DNA of 64,000 nt, from the NCBI GenBank assembly GCA_016764435.1, contig JAESRX010000038.1, forward strand, positions 1 through 64,000, given 5' to 3'. The position numbers were made by a program, and so were the translations under genes. This stretch comes from Flavobacteriaceae bacterium. Its GTDB lineage: Bacteria; Bacteroidota; Bacteroidia; Flavobacteriales; Flavobacteriaceae. Of the stretch, positions 2,957 through 18,508 are shown in pieces. Under the pieces are notes generated by a model that saw only the letters and a list, made by a program, of their open reading frames with translations, did not search any database and had not been told where the DNA came from. Position 1 is the stretch's first letter, and every line of letters begins with the position of its first letter.

Positions 2957-3835
2957 ATGAAAGGAATTCTCTTAGCCGGTGGGCATGGAACACGTTTGTA
3001 TCCTGTAACAAAAGGAACGTCAAAACAGTTGTTGGCCATTTATGATAAGCCTATGATTTACTATCCATTATCGGTCTTAATGCAAGCGGGGATATCTGAG
3101 GTGTTGATTATTTCTACGCCTAATGATTTGGGTAATTTTAAACATTTGTTTGGGGATGGCTCCGATTTAGGAATGCAGTTTTCTTATGTAGAACAACCCT
3201 CTCCCGATGGTTTAGCTCAGGCTTTTATATTAGGAGAAGAATTTATAGGCGAAGAGGATGTTTGTTTAGTACTGGGGGATAATATTTTCCACGGTGAAGG
3301 CTTGACGGACTTAATAGACAATGCCGTTTCAAATGTTAAAAATCATCAAAAAGCCAGTGTTTTTGGTTATTACGTAAGTGCTCCTAGCCGCTATGGTGTG
3401 GCCGCATTTGATGCGAATAATACGGTCATTAGTATCGAAGAGAAACCCTCAGAACCAAAGAGTAATTATGCGGTTGTAGGATTGTATTTTTACCCAAATT
3501 CTGTAATTAAAGTGGCAAAGAGTATCAGTCCTAGTGAACGGGGTGAGTTGGAGATTACATCGGTTAATCAATATTATTTAGCACAAGGAGCCTTACAACT
3601 TGAGATTATGGGACGTGGATACGCATGGCTAGATACCGGGACGCACGATTCTTTACTTGAGGCCTCTAATTTTGTCCAAACTATAGAAAAAAGACAAGGC
3701 TTGAAAATTGCATGTATAGAAGAAATTGCTTTTGAAAAAGGCTGGATTGATGCCCAACAGCTCCTTGTGATAGCCGCTCCTATGAAATCAACTTCCTATG
3801 GGCAGTATTTACTGAAATTAGCCGCTGGGAAATAG
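2957..3835 (+). CDS. rfbA: Glucose-1-phosphate thymidylyltransferase RfbA
   Basis: Joins dTTP and glucose-1-phosphate to give dTDP-glucose, the first step of dTDP-L-rhamnose synthesis in the cytoplasm. The N-terminal nucleotide-binding signature [19 protein letters not shown] and [11 protein letters not shown], the LGDNIFHG segment near residue 109 and [10 protein letters not shown] near residue 222 are all present. The length of 292 residues is normal for the short RmlA class. It is the first gene of the plus-strand locus and lies 29 bases upstream of rfbC. The start ATG is followed at once by the conserved KGILLAGG strand. Confidence 0.97.
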
Positions 3836-3864
3836 TATGAAATACACACTACTCACTATAAAAA

Positions 3865-4437
3865 ATGAAATTTAAAAAAACAAACATATCAAATTTGATT
3901 ATTTGCGAACCGACGGTATTTGGAGATTCTCGTGGTTATTTTATGGAGTCATTTAAACAAGACGATTTCAGTGCCTTTTTTGGGCATGCTATAAATTTCA
4001 TACAGGATAATGAGTCCATGTCTTCTTATGGCGTTTTACGTGGCATGCATTATCAAAGAGGTATGGATGCTCAGTCTAAATTGGTCCGAGTAGTGCAAGG
4101 GAAGGTGTTAGATGTAGTGGTGGATCTACGAAAAGACAGTCCGACATTTCAGGAAGTGTTTCGGATAGAATTGTCAGCTACAAATAAAAAACAATTGTTT
4201 GTCCCTAAAGGATGTGCTCACGGATATGTGGTATTGAGTGATACCGCAATTTTCCAATACAAAGTAGATGCCCCATATAAACCCTCCAGTGAATGTGGTT
4301 TTTTATACAATGATAAAACACTTCATATAGATTGGGAAGTGCCTCCTTCGGAGATTATTACTTCTGAAAAAGATAAGAAGGCCTCTGATTTTAAGAATGC
4401 ACCTGTTTTTTTAAATTCAAGCAACTTGTATGTATAA
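3865..4437 (+). CDS. rfbC: dTDP-4-dehydrorhamnose 3,5-epimerase RfbC
   Basis: Epimerises dTDP-4-keto-6-deoxyglucose at C3 and C5, the third step to dTDP-L-rhamnose. A cupin-type protein of 190 residues, normal for RmlC. It has the LRGMHYQ motif with the catalytic His, FVPKGCAHGYVVLSD, and the conserved tyrosine in FQYKVDAPYKP. Its 3' end overlaps rfbD by 8 bases, indicating translational coupling. Confidence 0.96.
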   Translation: MKFKKTNISNLIICEPTVFGDSRGYFMESFKQDDFSAFFGHAINFIQDNESMSSYGVLRGMHYQRGMDAQSKLVRVVQGKVLDVVVDLRKDSPTFQEVFRIELSATNKKQLFVPKGCAHGYVVLSDTAIFQYKVDAPYKPSSECGFLYNDKTLHIDWEVPPSEIITSEKDKKASDFKNAPVFLNSSNLYV

Positions 4438-5302
4438 TATTTTAGTTACTGGTGCGGGTGGCCAATTAGGGAAATGTATTCTTGATTGTAAAAAGACGCA
4501 CAAAAAATATAATTTTCATTTTGCAACACGCATAGAATTAGATATCTGTAATTTTGAGGCAGTTTCTGATTATTGCCAAGCGAATGATATCCATGTGATT
4601 ATAAATTGCGCAGCTTATACAAATGTAGATGCTGCAGAATCAGATATAGAGAATGCATTTAGAATCAATAAATACGGAGCTGAAAATATTGCTATTGTAG
4701 CAAAACAACAAGCATGTTCGCTTCTTCATATATCTACCGATTATGTGTTTGATGGAAATGGAAAGGTTCCCTATAATGAAGAAGACGCGACCAATCCGGT
4801 TACTGTTTATGGAAAAAGTAAATTAGCAGGGGAATTGGCAATTAAAAAGATAAACCCTGCAAATACGGTCATTATTAGAACTTCGTGGTTGTATTCACAG
4901 TATGCACCTAATTTTTTAAAAACAATGTTGCGCTTAGGTAAAGAAAAGACAGAAATATCCGTTGTAGATGATCAAAAAGGTTGCCCTACCTTTGCAATAG
5001 ATTTGGCAAATGTATTGTTGAAAATGATTCCGGAAATAAAATGTGAGCAGGTGAAAACATACCACTTCTCCAATGAAAATACTACAAGTTGGTATTTGTT
5101 TGCTCAGCGAATTATAAATACAATCTATAGGGATGTAAAGGTAGTTCCTATTCCTACGAGTGCTTTTATTACGAAGGCTAAAAGACCTGAATTTAGTGTG
5201 TTAGATTGTACACGGATAAAAAATGACTTTGGGCTTACAATTAGAGTGTGGGAAAAAGCGTTAGAGGAGTGTCTTAGCGTTGTTGTCAGCAGTAAAAAGT
5301 AA
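4430..5302 (+). CDS. rfbD: dTDP-4-dehydrorhamnose reductase RfbD
   Basis: NAD(P)H-dependent reduction of the 4-keto group, the last step to dTDP-L-rhamnose. A short-chain dehydrogenase with the glycine-rich start TGAGGQLGK, the NCAAYTNVDAAE segment, the STDYVFDG motif and the catalytic YGKSK (YxxxK). The 290-residue length is usual. The start codon lies inside the end of rfbC (8-base overlap). A 131-base gap follows before rfbB. Confidence 0.96.
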   Translation: MYNILVTGAGGQLGKCILDCKKTHKKYNFHFATRIELDICNFEAVSDYCQANDIHVIINCAAYTNVDAAESDIENAFRINKYGAENIAIVAKQQACSLLHISTDYVFDGNGKVPYNEEDATNPVTVYGKSKLAGELAIKKINPANTVIIRTSWLYSQYAPNFLKTMLRLGKEKTEISVVDDQKGCPTFAIDLANVLLKMIPEIKCEQVKTYHFSNENTTSWYLFAQRIINTIYRDVKVVPIPTSAFITKAKRPEFSVLDCTRIKNDFGLTIRVWEKALEECLSVVVSSKK

Positions 5303-5433
5303 AGAAAAGCTACTTTTAAAAGTGTAATTTCACCCCGCCAAGAGGCTATATTCTATGGTAATATTCACCCCGTAAAAGGTTGCCGATAGGATCGAAGTAT
5401 TCAATAGATGGACAAGATAGAAATAAATAAGAG
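5303..5433. repeat. Short gap with direct repeat and palindrome
   Basis: The gap between rfbD and rfbB contains the 12-base perfect palindrome ACTTTTAAAAGT (5312-5323) and two copies of TTCACCCCG (5329-5337 and 5364-5372). No gene is visible. Significance unknown. Confidence 0.3.
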
Positions 5434-6438
5434 ATGAAAGCAATTTTAGTGACAGGAGGCGCCGGTTTTATAGGCGCTAATTTTATTGAATTTATAATAG
5501 ATGAATATCCGGAATACCAGGTGGTAAATCTAGATAAATTGACTTATGCCGGAGATTTGATGCATTTAAAAAAAGTGCAAAATCATATGAATTATACTTT
5601 TATTCAGGGTGATATTTGTGATAGAGCATTGATAGAAATGCTTTTTACGACCTATGATATACGTGGAGTATTTCATTTAGCGGCAGAATCTCATGTAGAT
5701 AATTCCATCAGCAGTCCAGAAGTTTTTATAGAAACAAATATCAAGGGGACATTTACCTTATTAGATGTAGCCTATAAATACTGGATGGAAAAGCCTAATC
5801 AATATAGAAATGGCTATGAAAATTGTCGTTTTTTACAAGTTTCTACAGACGAAGTTTATGGTAGTTTAGGGAAAACAGGTTTGTTTACAGAGGAAACTTC
5901 CTATGCGCCAAATTCTCCATATAGTGCCTCAAAGGCAAGTGGAGATATGTTAGTGCGTAGCTACTATCACACTTATGGAATGAATACCATTATTACCAAT
6001 TGTTCTAATAATTATGGACCTAAACAGCATGCGGAAAAATTAATTCCAACCATCATACGTAAAATACTAGCAAACGAACAAATTCCCGTGTATGGAGATG
6101 GGAAAAATGTAAGAGACTGGCTGTATGTAAAAGATCATTGTGTAGGTTTAATGTTGGCCTTTGAAAAAGGGATTGCAGGTGAAGTGTATAATATTGGAGG
6201 TAAAAATGAAATGACGAACATCCAAATTGTCACTTTAATTTGTGCTCGAATGGATATTTTGTTGTCAAAAGATAGTGGGACTTGTGAGAAGCTGATTAAC
6301 TTTGTAGAAGATAGAGCAGGGCATGACTATAGGTATGCCATAGATGCTTCTAAAATAGAAGGCCACTTAGGCTGGGAAGCAAAAGAGAATTTTAAAACGG
6401 GAATACAGAAAACCATTGCATGGTATTTGAATAAATAA
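5434..6438 (+). CDS. rfbB: dTDP-glucose 4,6-dehydratase RfbB
   Basis: Converts dTDP-glucose to dTDP-4-keto-6-deoxyglucose, the second step of rhamnose synthesis. An extended SDR with the NAD-binding TGGAGFIGANF, the STDEVYGSLG motif containing the catalytic Thr-Asp-Glu triad, and the active-site YSASKAS (YxxxK). The 334-residue length is typical. Gene order rfbA-C-D-B completes the pathway, and wlbA starts two bases after its stop. Confidence 0.97.
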   Translation: MKAILVTGGAGFIGANFIEFIIDEYPEYQVVNLDKLTYAGDLMHLKKVQNHMNYTFIQGDICDRALIEMLFTTYDIRGVFHLAAESHVDNSISSPEVFIETNIKGTFTLLDVAYKYWMEKPNQYRNGYENCRFLQVSTDEVYGSLGKTGLFTEETSYAPNSPYSASKASGDMLVRSYYHTYGMNTIITNCSNNYGPKQHAEKLIPTIIRKILANEQIPVYGDGKNVRDWLYVKDHCVGLMLAFEKGIAGEVYNIGGKNEMTNIQIVTLICARMDILLSKDSGTCEKLINFVEDRAGHDYRYAIDASKIEGHLGWEAKENFKTGIQKTIAWYLNK

Positions 6439-6440
6439 GT

Positions 6441-7403
6441 ATGAATAAAAAAAACTTTGCCTTATTAGGAGCTGCAGGATATATTGCACCACGTCATTTA
6501 AAAGCAATTAAGGAAACAGGAAATACGCTTATAGCTGCGTTAGATAAAAATGATAGCGTAGGGATTTTGGATAGTTATTTCCCGAAAGCACATTTTTTTG
6601 TAGAATTTGAACGTTTTGACCGTCATATCGAAAAAATTACGCGCCAAGATAAAGTCTCTTTAGATTATGTGAGTATTTGTACTCCTAATTATTTACACGA
6701 TTCTCATATTCGTATGGCGTTGAGAAGAGGAGCCAGTGCTATTTGTGAAAAACCATTAGTGCTAAATCCCTGGAATATAGATGCTTTAATTGAAACGGAA
6801 AAGGAATCGGAAGGGACTATTAACTCTATTTTACAGTTGCGATTACATCCAAGTATTATCGCCTTAAAAGAAAAAATTGCCAACGGACCCGCCGATAAAG
6901 TATACGATGTAGATCTTACCTATTTAACCTCTCGAGGTAATTGGTATCATATTTCATGGAAAGGAGATGCTTCTAAATCTGGAGGGATCGCCACAAATAT
7001 AGGAGTCCACTTTTATGATATGTTAAGTTGGGTGTTTGGACCGATTAAAAATAATATAGTTCATGAACGTAAAGAAGACCGTGCGGCAGGTTATTTAGAG
7101 TTTTCACAAGCACGTGTTCGATGGTTCTTATCTATCAATGAAGATTTATTGCCAAAAGATATTGTCGCTGCGGGACAAAGAACCTATCGTTCGATCACCG
7201 TAAATGGCGAGGAAATTGAGTTTAGTGGAGGGTTTACAGACCTACACACACTAAGTTATGAGGCTATTTTAAAAGGAGAAGGCTTTGGTTTAGATGCTTC
7301 TAGAACCTCCATAGAGATAGTACATGATATTCGAAATGCGGAAATCACAAATAAAACAGGTGACTTTCATCCATTTTTACGCGCTAAAAATTATAATTTA
7401 TAG
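6441..7403 (+). CDS. wlbA: WlbA/WbpB-type UDP-sugar 3-dehydrogenase (Gfo/Idh/MocA)
   Basis: A Gfo/Idh/MocA oxidoreductase of 320 residues. The N-terminus NFALLGAAGYIAPRHLKAI, followed by YVSICTPNYLHDSH and the EKPLVLNPWN motif, is diagnostic of the WlbA/WbpB branch. That branch oxidises UDP-GlcNAc-uronic acid at C3 on the way to diacetylated mannuronic-type sugars. The family normally works with a WlbC/WbpE aminotransferase and a WlbB/WbpD acetyltransferase. The only such pair in this locus looks like PglE/PglD, so its true partners are unclear. Substrate assignment is by family. It lies two bases after rfbB and is followed by a 203-base gap. Confidence 0.85.
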   Translation: MNKKNFALLGAAGYIAPRHLKAIKETGNTLIAALDKNDSVGILDSYFPKAHFFVEFERFDRHIEKITRQDKVSLDYVSICTPNYLHDSHIRMALRRGASAICEKPLVLNPWNIDALIETEKESEGTINSILQLRLHPSIIALKEKIANGPADKVYDVDLTYLTSRGNWYHISWKGDASKSGGIATNIGVHFYDMLSWVFGPIKNNIVHERKEDRAAGYLEFSQARVRWFLSINEDLLPKDIVAAGQRTYRSITVNGEEIEFSGGFTDLHTLSYEAILKGEGFGLDASRTSIEIVHDIRNAEITNKTGDFHPFLRAKNYNL

Positions 7404-7528
7404 TGCGATAACATGTTGTAATATATAGTGTTGTTTGTTATATTCTATATATATTGAGATAGAAAAAAAACTTGATTCGAATAAATATTTGGGTAGTTTT
7501 ATGTATGTTTACCACCTGAAAGTTAAAA

Positions 7529-7547
7529 TCGATTTACTTAAAATCGA
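7529..7547 (+). promoter_or_regulatory. Leader stem-loop before the UpxY-like gene
   Basis: TCGATTT, loop ACTTA, AAATCGA forms a perfect 7-base-pair hairpin 60 bases upstream of the UpxY-like start. It would lie in the 5' leader if transcription starts in the 7404-7528 gap or upstream. NusG-family antiterminators of polysaccharide operons act on leader RNA or DNA elements, so this is a candidate recognition site. That role is inference. Confidence 0.35.
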
Positions 7548-7606
7548 ATCTATAGTTTTATAGAAGCTAATAAGATGTTTAGAAAGACATCCTTGTAAAA
7601 AAAAAA

Positions 7607-8113
7607 TTGAAAAAAAGTACGACTAGTTGGTTTGCAATATATACTGCTCCCCGCGCTGAAAAAAAAGTTTTTCAACGTTTAGAGTCGGTGGGGTATATTG
7701 TATATTTACCTTTATTAAGTACTGTAAAACAATGGAGTGATCGTAAGAAAAAGGTTGAAATACCGTTAATCTCTTCCTATGTTTTTGTTAAAATAGAACT
7801 TCTAGGACTTTCAAAGTTGAGAGGGGTTCCAGGAGTTGTTGGCGTGTTAAAATATTTAGGCAAGCCTGCCGCCGTAAAAGAGGTAGAAATTAATAATTTA
7901 AAAATATTAGTTAGGGAGCAGCAACATGTAAAAGTACTCACAGATATTCAGATTCCGAAAGGAACTCCAATTCAAGTAATAAATGGACAAATGAAGGGAG
8001 TTATTGGAGAGCTGGTACATTATAAAGGAAAGGTAAAAGTGATTGTCCGAGTGGAAGCTTGTGCTACGCTTGTGGAAGTGGAAGTTCCATTGTCCTTTGT
8101 AGAAAAGATATAG
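7607..8113 (+). CDS. UpxY-like NusG-family transcription antiterminator
   Basis: A 168-residue NusG paralogue of the RfaH/UpxY kind. The N-terminal domain has WFAIYTAPRAEKKVFQRL, YLPLLSTVKQWSDRKKK and SYVFVKI; the C-terminal KOW-like part has GTPIQVINGQMKGVIGEL. These proteins let RNA polymerase read through long polysaccharide operons. The start must be TTG at 7607: the only nearby upstream ATG runs into a stop, and the next in-frame Met is deep in the KOW domain. Unlike in Bacteroides capsule loci, where UpxY is usually first, it sits after five sugar genes. It may therefore mark the head of a second transcription unit. Confidence 0.88.
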   Translation: MKKSTTSWFAIYTAPRAEKKVFQRLESVGYIVYLPLLSTVKQWSDRKKKVEIPLISSYVFVKIELLGLSKLRGVPGVVGVLKYLGKPAAVKEVEINNLKILVREQQHVKVLTDIQIPKGTPIQVINGQMKGVIGELVHYKGKVKVIVRVEACATLVEVEVPLSFVEKI

Positions 8114-8242
8114 ATACTTTTTTAAGTGTAGATAAAATAAAACTATTGAGTTGATATTCAGTAGTTTTTTGTAATTTATAATAGTTATAATAATTGTGCA
8201 GCGCATAGGGATATGTGACTGACCGTGGCGAAGCTGTGAAAT

Positions 8243-9544
8243 ATGAATGAATTTTTAAAAAAATGTAACATTGCCGTTATCGGATTGGGCTATGTAGGCC
8301 TGCCGTTAGCTAGATTGTTTGCAACTAAATATCCTGTTGTTGGGTTTGATATTGACACAACACGTATTACTGCTCTAATTAATGGAAGTGATAGTACGAA
8401 TGAAGTGAGTGACTCTTTATTAAAAGGCGTATTAAAAATAGCAAATGTAGACAAAGAGGCGAAAGGGTTGTACTGTTCAAGTACACCTTCTGAAATCTCT
8501 AATTGTAATGTTTTTATCATTACAGTACCTACTCCCGTTGATCAAAATAATAGAGTAGTACTGACCCCTTTGGTAAAAGCAAGTGAAACTGTAGGGAATG
8601 TTTTGAAAAAAGGAGATCTTGTAATTTATGAATCTACCGTTTATCCGGGGGTTACAGAAGATGAATGTGTGCCTGTTTTAGAAAGGGTATCTGGACTCAT
8701 TTTTAATAAAGATTTTTTTGTAGGTTATTCTCCAGAACGCATAAATCCAGGAGATAAAGTACATAGCATTGAACATATTTTAAAAGTAACTTCTGGCTCT
8801 ACTCCAGAAATAGCGACTCAAGTAGATGACCTCTATAAAACGATTATTACTGCGGGTACACACAAAGCACCCAGTATAAAAGTAGCAGAAGCATCCAAAG
8901 TAATAGAAAATTCACAACGTGATATTAATATCGCTTTTATGAATGAGTTGGCTAAGATTTTCGGCTTGATGAATATTGATACCCAAGCAGTTTTAGAGGC
9001 TGCAGCAACCAAATGGAATTTTTTACCATTTACACCAGGGCTAGTTGGAGGGCATTGTATAGGAGTAGACCCCTATTATTTGGCGCAAAAAGCACAGGAG
9101 TTAGGATATAATCCAGGAATTATTTTGGCGGGTAGAAGAATGAATGATTCTATGGGAGCTTATGTAGCTTCTGATGTTGTTAAAATGATGCTAACAGAAG
9201 ATGTTCCTGTGAAAAACGCGAAGGTTTTAGTCTTAGGAATTACTTTTAAAGAAAACTGTCCTGATATTAGAAATACAAAAGTAGTAGATGTTATTAGGAG
9301 CCTTCAGGAATATGGAATGCAAGTAGATGTGTATGATCCTTGGGCAAATACAAATGATGTATTAAATGAATATCAATTAGAAATTAGCAATACGTTATTA
9401 TCAAAAAAATATGACACCATCATATTAACGGTAGCGCACAGTTCTTTTTTAATGCTAAATTTTGATGATTTATTATCAGAATGTGGTGTAGTATATGATG
9501 TAAAAGGTGTTCTTAAATCTAACAGGGTTAAAGCAAGTTTATAA
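8243..9544 (+). CDS. tviB: UDP-N-acetylhexosamine 6-dehydrogenase, TviB/WbpO type
   Basis: NAD-dependent oxidation of a UDP-N-acetylhexosamine (GalNAc or GlcNAc) to its uronic acid. It has the Rossmann motif IAVIGLGYVGLPLA, ITVPTPV, YESTVYPG, YSPERINPGD, the catalytic-Cys segment GLVGGHCIGVDPYYL and a C-terminal FKENCPDIRNTK domain. The overall sequence pattern is that of Salmonella TviB. The 433-residue length is normal. Its stop is directly followed by the ATG of ugd, so the two are coupled. Whether the product is GalNAcA or GlcNAcA cannot be decided from sequence alone; WlbA nearby would need UDP-GlcNAcA. Confidence 0.93.
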   Translation: MNEFLKKCNIAVIGLGYVGLPLARLFATKYPVVGFDIDTTRITALINGSDSTNEVSDSLLKGVLKIANVDKEAKGLYCSSTPSEISNCNVFIITVPTPVDQNNRVVLTPLVKASETVGNVLKKGDLVIYESTVYPGVTEDECVPVLERVSGLIFNKDFFVGYSPERINPGDKVHSIEHILKVTSGSTPEIATQVDDLYKTIITAGTHKAPSIKVAEASKVIENSQRDINIAFMNELAKIFGLMNIDTQAVLEAAATKWNFLPFTPGLVGGHCIGVDPYYLAQKAQELGYNPGIILAGRRMNDSMGAYVASDVVKMMLTEDVPVKNAKVLVLGITFKENCPDIRNTKVVDVIRSLQEYGMQVDVYDPWANTNDVLNEYQLEISNTLLSKKYDTIILTVAHSSFLMLNFDDLLSECGVVYDVKGVLKSNRVKASL

Positions 9545-12175: not shown

Positions 12176-12200
12176 GGTCCCTGAGCGAAGCCGAAGGGAC
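12176..12200. repeat. Palindromic repeat upstream of wza
   Basis: GTCCC (12177-12181) and GGGAC (12196-12200) flank TGAGCGAAGCCGAA. The pattern CCTGAGCGAAG-CGAAGG is a common intergenic palindrome type in Flavobacteriaceae genomes (recalled, not searched). It ends 14 bases before the wza ATG. Confidence 0.5.
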
Positions 12201-16993: not shown

Positions 16994-18508
16994 GTGGGAA
17001 GTATAGGGAGAGGAATTGTTTTATCATATGTAAATATATTATTAGGAATTATTTCCGGAATATTTTTAACTCCATTTATGATACAAGCAATGGGGAAGTC
17101 AGAATATGGCTTGTATATTTTAATAGGTTCGGTAGTTGGCTATATGTCTGTTTTTGATTTTGGAATAAACAATGCCTTGATTCGGTTTGTATCTAAATAC
17201 AGAGCAGAGGGAGATACGATTTCAGAACAGAAATTTTTGGGACAAGGAATTTTAGTTTACTTGCTGTTGGCTCTTTTAATTGTTCTAGTTGGCTATGGTT
17301 TCTATCTTAATATAGATGCCGTCTTTGGACAGTCACTTACCATAGAGGAACTTTCGAAGGCTAAACAAATGTTTGTGGTATTACTTATAAATATTGCTAT
17401 AACTGTCCCAGGAGGTGCTTTCGATGGTGTTATTAATGCTTATGAACGATATGAAATACCACGGATATCTAGGTCCTTAAGAATTGTATCTAGAGTTATT
17501 TTAATATACTATGTTTTAAAAAATGATGGTGATGCTATATCAGTAGTGTTAATTGATACTGCAATAAATATAATTATTGTTGGATTAAATGCCTTTTATT
17601 GTTTTAAGGTATTGAAAATAAAGTTGATCTTTTCTTTTGATAGAATCATCTTTGTGACTATGTTTAGCTATTCTTTTTGGGTTTTTTTAAATACGATAAT
17701 AGATCAGTTATATTGGAAGATGGGGCAAACATTACTTGGGATCTTCGAAAATACCGCCGAAGTTGCCGTATATGCAGTGGCCGCTACAATTATAGCATAC
17801 TATATGACTATCTCAGGTAGTTTAGTAGGTATTTTTTTACCGAAGGCTACAAAAATGTTTGTTGAAAAGATTGCTCCAAATGAAATCACCACATTTATGG
17901 TTAAAGTTGGCCGTATTCAAAGTTTTATATTAATAGGCGTTTTGGTTGGTTTTGTTTTTTTTGGAAAAAAGTTTATTATCTTATGGGTAGGCTTGGACTT
18001 TATGGAGTCTTATTATATTATAATAGTGACTCTTATTGGGCTAACTCCTTATTTGATTCAAAGTATTGGAGGTATTTTATTACAGGCATATGGGAAGTTT
18101 TCCATTCGAACATTAATTCTTTTAACGATTGTCATATTCAATTTGTTTCTCGCTATTTTCCTTGTTAAAATATATGCTGGTTTAGGTGTTGCCTATAGCA
18201 CTGCAATATCCTTTATGATACAGTTTATTGTTTTAAGTTTGTACTATAAAAAAACATTTGGTATCAGTTTAAAGCAATATTACGGAGGACTTATACAAGG
18301 ATGGGAATACGGGATATTCATTATAATAGGGCTTGGATTTATCTGTAGTGTTTTTAATTTCACAGATGAACTTTGGAGTAGTTTTTTATGGAATAGTATG
18401 TTGTTTCTTCTGTTTTATTTAATGTCTATTTATTTTATTGTATTGAAGTCTACAGAAAAAAGTGTTTTACTCAAATACCTTAAATCTAAGATGCATAAAT
18501 TTTTATAA
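16994..18508 (+). CDS. wzx: Wzx flippase (polysaccharide transporter)
   Basis: Integral membrane protein of 504 residues and about 12-14 transmembrane helices, of the PST/MATE flippase type. The N-terminus SYVNILLGIISGIFLTPFMI with GKSEYGLYILIGS, and the FDFGINNALIRFVSKY motif, fit family members that flip undecaprenyl-linked repeat units. The start is GTG 16994. The ATG at 16965 is in another frame and ends quickly, and the next internal Met would cut away the first helix. Confidence 0.9.
   Translation: MGSIGRGIVLSYVNILLGIISGIFLTPFMIQAMGKSEYGLYILIGSVVGYMSVFDFGINNALIRFVSKYRAEGDTISEQKFLGQGILVYLLLALLIVLVGYGFYLNIDAVFGQSLTIEELSKAKQMFVVLLINIAITVPGGAFDGVINAYERYEIPRISRSLRIVSRVILIYYVLKNDGDAISVVLIDTAINIIIVGLNAFYCFKVLKIKLIFSFDRIIFVTMFSYSFWVFLNTIIDQLYWKMGQTLLGIFENTAEVAVYAVAATIIAYYMTISGSLVGIFLPKATKMFVEKIAPNEITTFMVKVGRIQSFILIGVLVGFVFFGKKFIILWVGLDFMESYYIIIVTLIGLTPYLIQSIGGILLQAYGKFSIRTLILLTIVIFNLFLAIFLVKIYAGLGVAYSTAISFMIQFIVLSLYYKKTFGISLKQYYGGLIQGWEYGIFIIIGLGFICSVFNFTDELWSSFLWNSMLFLLFYLMSIYFIVLKSTEKSVLLKYLKSKMHKFL

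Follow-up and report, generated by a model that had tools for sequence, protein, structure and literature searches.

Where does an antiterminator of the UpxY family load when its gene lies in the middle of a polysaccharide locus, and which genes does it then serve? The question is raised by a 64,000-nucleotide stretch of DNA from a member of the Flavobacteriaceae (contig JAESRX010000038.1, positions 1 to 64,000), hereafter the window. Judging from the sequence and its conservation, we consider it quite probable that an element behind the gene, at 8196-8238, is a UpxY loading and pause site from which an antiterminated block of about 21 kb would open.

Architecture of the locus

The gene and its surroundings comprise the following features.

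2957-7403, forward strand: upstream unit of rmlA, rmlC, rmlD, rmlB and a gene for a Gfo/Idh/MocA oxidoreductase, assigned by Pfam and NCBIfam matches
7404-7606: gap of 203 nt before upxY
7607-8113, forward strand: upxY, encoding a NusG-paralogue antiterminator of 168 aa, with a TTG start
8139-8168, forward strand: terminator-like hairpin between upxY and the element, with a 13-bp stem, a 4-nt loop and a T-run
8243-29799, forward strand: presumed antiterminated block of about 21 kb, with 17 ORFs of at least 100 aa, 14 of them scanned

An earlier note on this DNA had read five sugar-nucleotide genes ahead of the regulator, and the five genes of the upstream unit do lie there on the same strand. 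On the other side, all 14 scanned ORFs of the block have polysaccharide-type Pfam matches; they begin with a tviB-like gene at 8243, the next ORF of at least 100 aa after upxY, and include ugd-like, manC-like and wza-like genes, Wzz, a flippase, glycosyltransferases, an aminotransferase and others. Within the block, the flippase-type gene (Polysacc_synt) occupies 16994-18508.

The same note had proposed two transcription units, with antitermination confined to the downstream one, and this division gains support from the terminator-like hairpin at 8139-8168 and the conserved element that comes after it. With such a hairpin standing between upxY and the element, the locus seems to split into an rml-upxY portion and a portion from tviB onward. 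The region 8136-8178 folds at -12.1 kcal/mol, and a scan suited to low GC content finds four terminator-like hairpins on the forward strand between 2 and 38 kb, namely 8139-8168 and those near 2892, 32980 and 37083. A standard terminator scan returns nine sites against 7.8 expected and misses the hairpin at 8139-8168, so the terminator is to be read as suggestive; among loci with a long gap between upxY and the element, 3 of 14, the window included, carry a similar hairpin. The hairpin at 2892-2913 stands just before rmlA and perhaps marks the start of the upstream unit.

Scanning for sigma-70-type promoters gave 64 sites against 58.4 expected. Bacteroidetes-type promoters follow the consensus TTG, 17-23 nt, TAnnTTTG; allowing one mismatch, this pattern matches six times in 7301-8260, including at 7472, inside the gap, and at 8169, ahead of the element, which is too frequent to trust. 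Among 29 sites close behind upxY, 4 have TAnnTTTG at -350 to -40, against 8 on the opposite strand.

A UpxY-family protein

The UpxY-like antiterminator with a TTG start that the earlier note had recognised holds up on both counts: the product scores 134.1 bits against the NCBIfam profile NF033644 (UpxY antiterminator; cut-off 100) over residues 8-164, and the 168-aa ORF at 7607-8113 begins with TTG. The location given for it stood in part, in that the gene exists, while 7404 is the start of the preceding gap and upxY itself begins at 7607. The product also contains the Pfam NusG N-terminal domain, and falls below the NCBIfam cut-offs of the RfaH, NusG and LoaP families. An AlphaFold2 model computed from an alignment of 81 UpxY relatives (pLDDT 92.6) has an NGN-type N-terminal domain and a C-terminal domain of beta-strands, and the nearest solved folds are those of NusG and RfaH; the predicted architecture is thus the NGN domain plus KOW-type C-terminal domain that membership calls for. 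Polysaccharide genes flank upxY on both sides, the genomic context of the family. The protein encoded at 7607-8113 is a true member of the UpxY family of NusG paralogues and, we infer, would prevent premature termination in its own operon. A second upxY is present in the same genome, on another contig.

The most conserved stretch among the 81 aligned UpxY proteins is KQWSDRKK, residues 41-48 of the window protein, within which S44, D45, R46 and K48 are invariant. It is possibly a contact to nucleic acid or polymerase.

The hairpin upstream of upxY

7529-7547, forward strand: first-noted hairpin, judged to lie outside the system, being at chance level and missing from other leaders

The earlier note had offered this hairpin, upstream of upxY, as the element that recruits UpxY. 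Reading of the sequence confirms both the 203-nt gap and the hairpin within it, a perfect 7-bp stem (TCGATTT with AAATCGA) around the 5-nt loop ACTTA, lying within repeat I5. A perfect leader hairpin would suit a protein whose B. fragilis relatives work on leaders upstream of upxY, according to the available part of one report (PMC7819879). Against this, of 1000 dinucleotide-shuffled versions of the gap 19.8% contain a perfect stem of at least 7 bp with a loop of 3-8 nt; the window has roughly one such stem per kb, and 34 of 107 upxY leaders of 203 nt (window included) have one; the folding of the whole gap is unremarkable (z -1.43). The 19-mer has no second copy in the window (0.03 expected), and its conservation before the upxY genes of relatives failed to appear: allowing up to four mismatches, it is absent from the leaders (up to 400 nt) of all 107 other upxY loci. 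Its sole within-genus match, 92% over 26 bases in the congener G001, falls between genes that by eye resemble pyrF and tpiA, not in a capsule locus. As a recruitment site for UpxY the hairpin is rejected, and we regard the idea as barely credible.

A conserved element beside upxY

Conservation points to the other side of the gene, where the candidate loading element has two parts.

8196-8238, forward strand: whole loading element, an RNA hairpin, 3 nt and then GGCGAAGCTGTG, before the tviB-like gene
8196-8223, forward strand: RNA hairpin of the element, GTGCAGCGCATAGGGATATGTGACTGAC, with two bulged bases; it folds at -9.4 kcal/mol and ends 3 nt before the core
8227-8238, forward strand: ops-like core, GGCGAAGCTGTG, presumably where polymerase pauses and where UpxY touches the non-template DNA

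The consensus motif reads TG(T/G)GACTnA-n-GGCGAAGCYRTG, or in a longer form TG(T/G)GACTnA, a few bases and GGCGAAGC(C/T)(G/A)TG, and corresponds to 8214-8238 in the window. It was first spotted upstream of upxY in a few relatives; in the window it lies downstream. Counting as adjacent any RGCGAAGCY with TG(T/G)GA-like context up to 500 nt upstream or 700 nt downstream of upxY, the element adjoins the gene in 49 of 108 loci (L001, L034, L042 and L043 being left out as redundant), 6 times upstream and 43 times downstream, with 29 of the 43 no more than 100 nt from the upxY stop. Accepting any core, with no context demanded, gives 54 of 111 loci. The order upxY, element, downstream genes is therefore the usual one among loci with an adjacent element (43 of 49), and the closest ORF of at least 150 aa on the upstream side shares the strand of upxY in 26 of 40 loci checked. 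A upxY gene normally precedes the block that it is presumed to serve.

On a tree of the 81 UpxY proteins, presence of the element takes 16 changes against 27.3 under shuffling (none of 500 shuffles as low), and the element is spread over the tree, so that no single clade owns it. The 59 loci lacking the element were searched for enriched words, and nothing comparable emerged.

A palindrome-like sequence, CCCTGAGCGAAGCCGAAGGG, at 12179-12198, stands just before the wza-like gene and holds GCGAAGC without the upstream context; this type of pattern has one further copy in the window's own genome, and the reversed pattern has none.

A hairpin kept by compensating changes

The 3' arm of the RNA hairpin contains the semi-conserved TGTGACTGA at 8214-8222, and the 5' arm varies in sequence across loci. 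Pairing was assessed by swapping halves between sites, first in 41 sites (8 of the 49 having been dropped at protein identity of at least 75%): own 5' and 3' arms average -7.77 kcal/mol, swapped ones -5.00 (sd 0.31; 0 of 500 as low). A further 66 held-out sites, found by a sequence-only model that excluded the 5' arm and drawn from 89 loci (minus 13 training-set sites, 9 without a usable core and 1 duplicate), give -7.33 kcal/mol for own arms and -5.30 for swapped ones (sd 0.24; 0 of 500 as low). In 38 of these 66 a spacer of 2 or 3 nt separates the hairpin from the core; at some sites (L195, L198 and L214) the hairpin is weak. On these comparisons, the 5' arm pairs with its own 3' arm and the hairpin is kept by compensating changes. 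No Rfam 15 covariance model matches in the window at its gathering score, and none matches 7380-8300 at E<=1.

The sequence of the 3' arm may be conserved because UpxY touches that stretch of upstream duplex DNA; contact of UpxY with upstream duplex DNA is credited to Saba 2024 in the accessible part of PMC12691694.

An ops-like core

GCGAAGC is fixed in the 49 selected sites, yet it was itself the selection criterion. The core is able to close as a minihairpin, GGC-GAA-GCY, whose outer pair is G-C in 20, G-T in 13 and A-T in 8 of 41 sites; no site has a mispair there, though the selection pattern would permit A-C. With standard DNA energies the window's 12-mer is predicted to stay unfolded, and the GGCGAAGCCGTG form comes out at -1.7 kcal/mol. 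The ops element of E. coli reads GGCGGTAGCGTG; set against these letters, GGCGAAGCTGTG agrees at positions 1-4 and 10-12, short of an exact ops. The two 12-mers are collinear, and the core would by analogy work as ops does, through a non-template hairpin, a pause and recruitment. A 9-mer containing GCGAAGC forms an extraordinarily stable DNA hairpin, as described in the available part of PMC10527192.

The core is also oriented. All 50 copies of RGCGAAGCY within 300 nt of upxY, spread over 48 loci, are on the coding strand; at greater distances 1.0 Mb holds 25 and 22 on the two strands, some of them true-looking elements. Conserved dyads near operon starts can, as a matter of general knowledge, be double-stranded sites of ordinary DNA-binding regulators, but for such a site both the position of all 50 cores near upxY on the coding strand and the G-T outer pairs, which fit a single strand better, would be out of keeping, and we think it very improbable that the element is one.

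Specificity and co-occurrence with UpxY

As a candidate UpxY loading site, the reading we prefer, the element was described by a model of 27 positions built from 41 sites (R1), which matches the window at 8212-8238 with 25.6 bits, a site that belongs to the training set. Across the window's own genome (3.03 Mb, 81% complete) R1 matches twice at E<=5, once beside each upxY, with no extra site; both belong to the training set, and the informative part is therefore the lack of other matches. A first, loose pattern search of the same genome had been uninformative, the pattern and its reversed form each matching 4 times.

Among 119 relatives, 21 have an R1 match at E<=0.05 and 20 of the 21 carry UpxY (presence being called at E<1e-8), against a base rate of 35/119; outside the training genomes, 8 of 9 relatives with a match carry it. 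G001, the one relative with a match and no detected UpxY, is a congener whose genome is incomplete (75%); its site stands before gmd. The association widens to the phylum: R1 matches 74 of 296 genomes at E<=0.01, and 72 of the 74 carry UpxY against a base rate of 158/296 (Fisher 1e-21), UpxY presence here being called at E<=1e-28 or so, with UpxY matches listed down to about 120 bits and more than 100 bits estimated from E for the weakest. Matches at this threshold occur in 2 of 138 UpxY-free genomes, which is about chance. The reverse link is looser, with 86 of the 158 UpxY genomes lacking a match at E<=0.01.

Three genomes have a match and no detected UpxY (G001, G303 and G341). G303 holds a strong one at C17:4127-4153 (L179; E 2.2e-4), with no UpxY match at E<=1e-15. 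G183, counted in the phylum statistics despite its repeat-like matches, has at least 25 of them on many contigs (for instance C29:4039-4061 and C1:9050-9072), nearly all to model positions 2-24 and close to one another in score, as though a dispersed repeat contained the core.

An RNA regulator answering to a small molecule, the ribosome or another protein, and linked to UpxY through polysaccharide operons only, would likewise show a conserved RNA hairpin, and start codons are close in several loci (5 nt from core to ATG in the window). UpxY-free genomes are, however, expected to hold polysaccharide operons and match the element at roughly chance level; taken with the lack of an Rfam family match and the collinearity with ops, this makes such a regulator an improbable account of the element.

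Element sites away from upxY

In 40 genomes upxY has no adjacent core, and 29 of these have a match elsewhere at E<=0.05, where about 2 would be expected, a few of them on the upxY contig, farther off; the other 11 have no match at that threshold. The first ORFs after 19 non-adjacent sites comprise 10 that are clearly of polysaccharide type, 3 that are cytidylyltransferase-like and 6 with other or no matches. A further 26 include four nucleotide-sugar dehydrogenases, two each of epimerases, flippase-type and export proteins, one phage integrase and one 23S-intervening protein, all of these family counts covering ORFs that follow element sites. Leader promoters find weak support in an excess of TAnnTTTG, found at -350 to -40 in 18 of 52 mostly non-adjacent sites against 9 on the opposite strand. 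With the element standing before polysaccharide genes away from upxY in other genomes, UpxY probably acts in trans as well.

At L155 (G009:C19) two more element matches lie after upxY on the reverse strand, at 6502 and 9796 (E 0.02-0.04), in one gene cluster and before genes that by eye are Wzc-like and manC-like. Reloading sites are a possible explanation.

A proposed loading mechanism

The rml/upxY unit would supply UpxY, and polymerase moving beyond 8168, whether by read-through or from a local promoter, would transcribe 8196-8238. The nascent RNA of 8196-8223 would fold as a hairpin behind polymerase, and in the bubble GGCGAAGCTGTG would be exposed on the non-template strand, free to form the GC-GAA-GC minihairpin. 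RNA hairpin and non-template core may then jointly pause polymerase and let UpxY bind; the bound protein would travel with polymerase and suppress pausing and termination through the block. Since the terminator-like hairpin precedes the element, it would be out of reach of UpxY that loads there.

Comparison with known systems

Bacteroides UpxY, reportedly the subject of a 2009 study by Chatzidaki-Livanis, is of the same protein family and belongs to polysaccharide loci as in the window; it is said (Saba 2024) to recognise paused polymerase via non-template and upstream DNA, with RNA hairpins helping. As far as the available text of two reports goes, B. fragilis UpxY proteins act on leaders upstream of upxY (PMC7819879), whereas the window's element follows the gene, and each acts on its own operon, with UpxZ (PMC7593976), whereas in genomes other than this one the same element is found also away from upxY. 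In the Bacteroides UpxY/UpxZ pair upxZ comes directly after upxY, a place taken in the window by the tviB-like gene.

RfaH of Proteobacteria is likewise a NusG paralogue, acting in trans through ops, a 12-nt GGCG....TG element in operon leaders whose non-template DNA hairpin pauses polymerase and recruits RfaH (PMC11001881 and PMC6391919, in the parts available). A 2020 paper, in its accessible portion, named E. coli RfaH as then the sole representative with recruitment known in detail (PMC7593976). The ops loop is GGTA where the window core has GAA, and the window adds an RNA hairpin in front. Against the RfaH profile TIGR01955 (cut-off 144.5 bits) the window UpxY scores 57.7, and its C-terminal domain is a predicted beta barrel, in contrast to the autoinhibited alpha hairpin of RfaH. 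LoaP of Bacillus is also a NusG paralogue that serves a long operon with a leader hairpin, that of dfn (PMC12691694, available part); the window UpxY scores 36.3 bits against NF033641 (LoaP; cut-off 125), and the window hairpin has an ops-like core after it.

Among the literature matches listed for the motif and for UpxY recruitment, none reports the element in its accessible text, and Saba 2024 may print the motif. What the present analysis seems to add to the Bacteroides work is one phylum-wide sequence element, which mostly follows upxY and also stands ahead of polysaccharide genes away from upxY. With a short element that can be searched for and that predicts the sites of UpxY action, the regulon would become readable from Bacteroidota genomes and the mechanism testable through changing 12 bases, and the GCGAAGC DNA minihairpin may gain a natural role. 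We hold the scales level on the broadest proposal, that one bipartite UpxY loading code, an RNA pause hairpin plus a non-template d(GCGAAGC) minihairpin, is common to the Bacteroidota, marks the polysaccharide regulon served in cis and trans, and matches the ops of Proteobacteria, by descent or by convergence on the geometry of polymerase.
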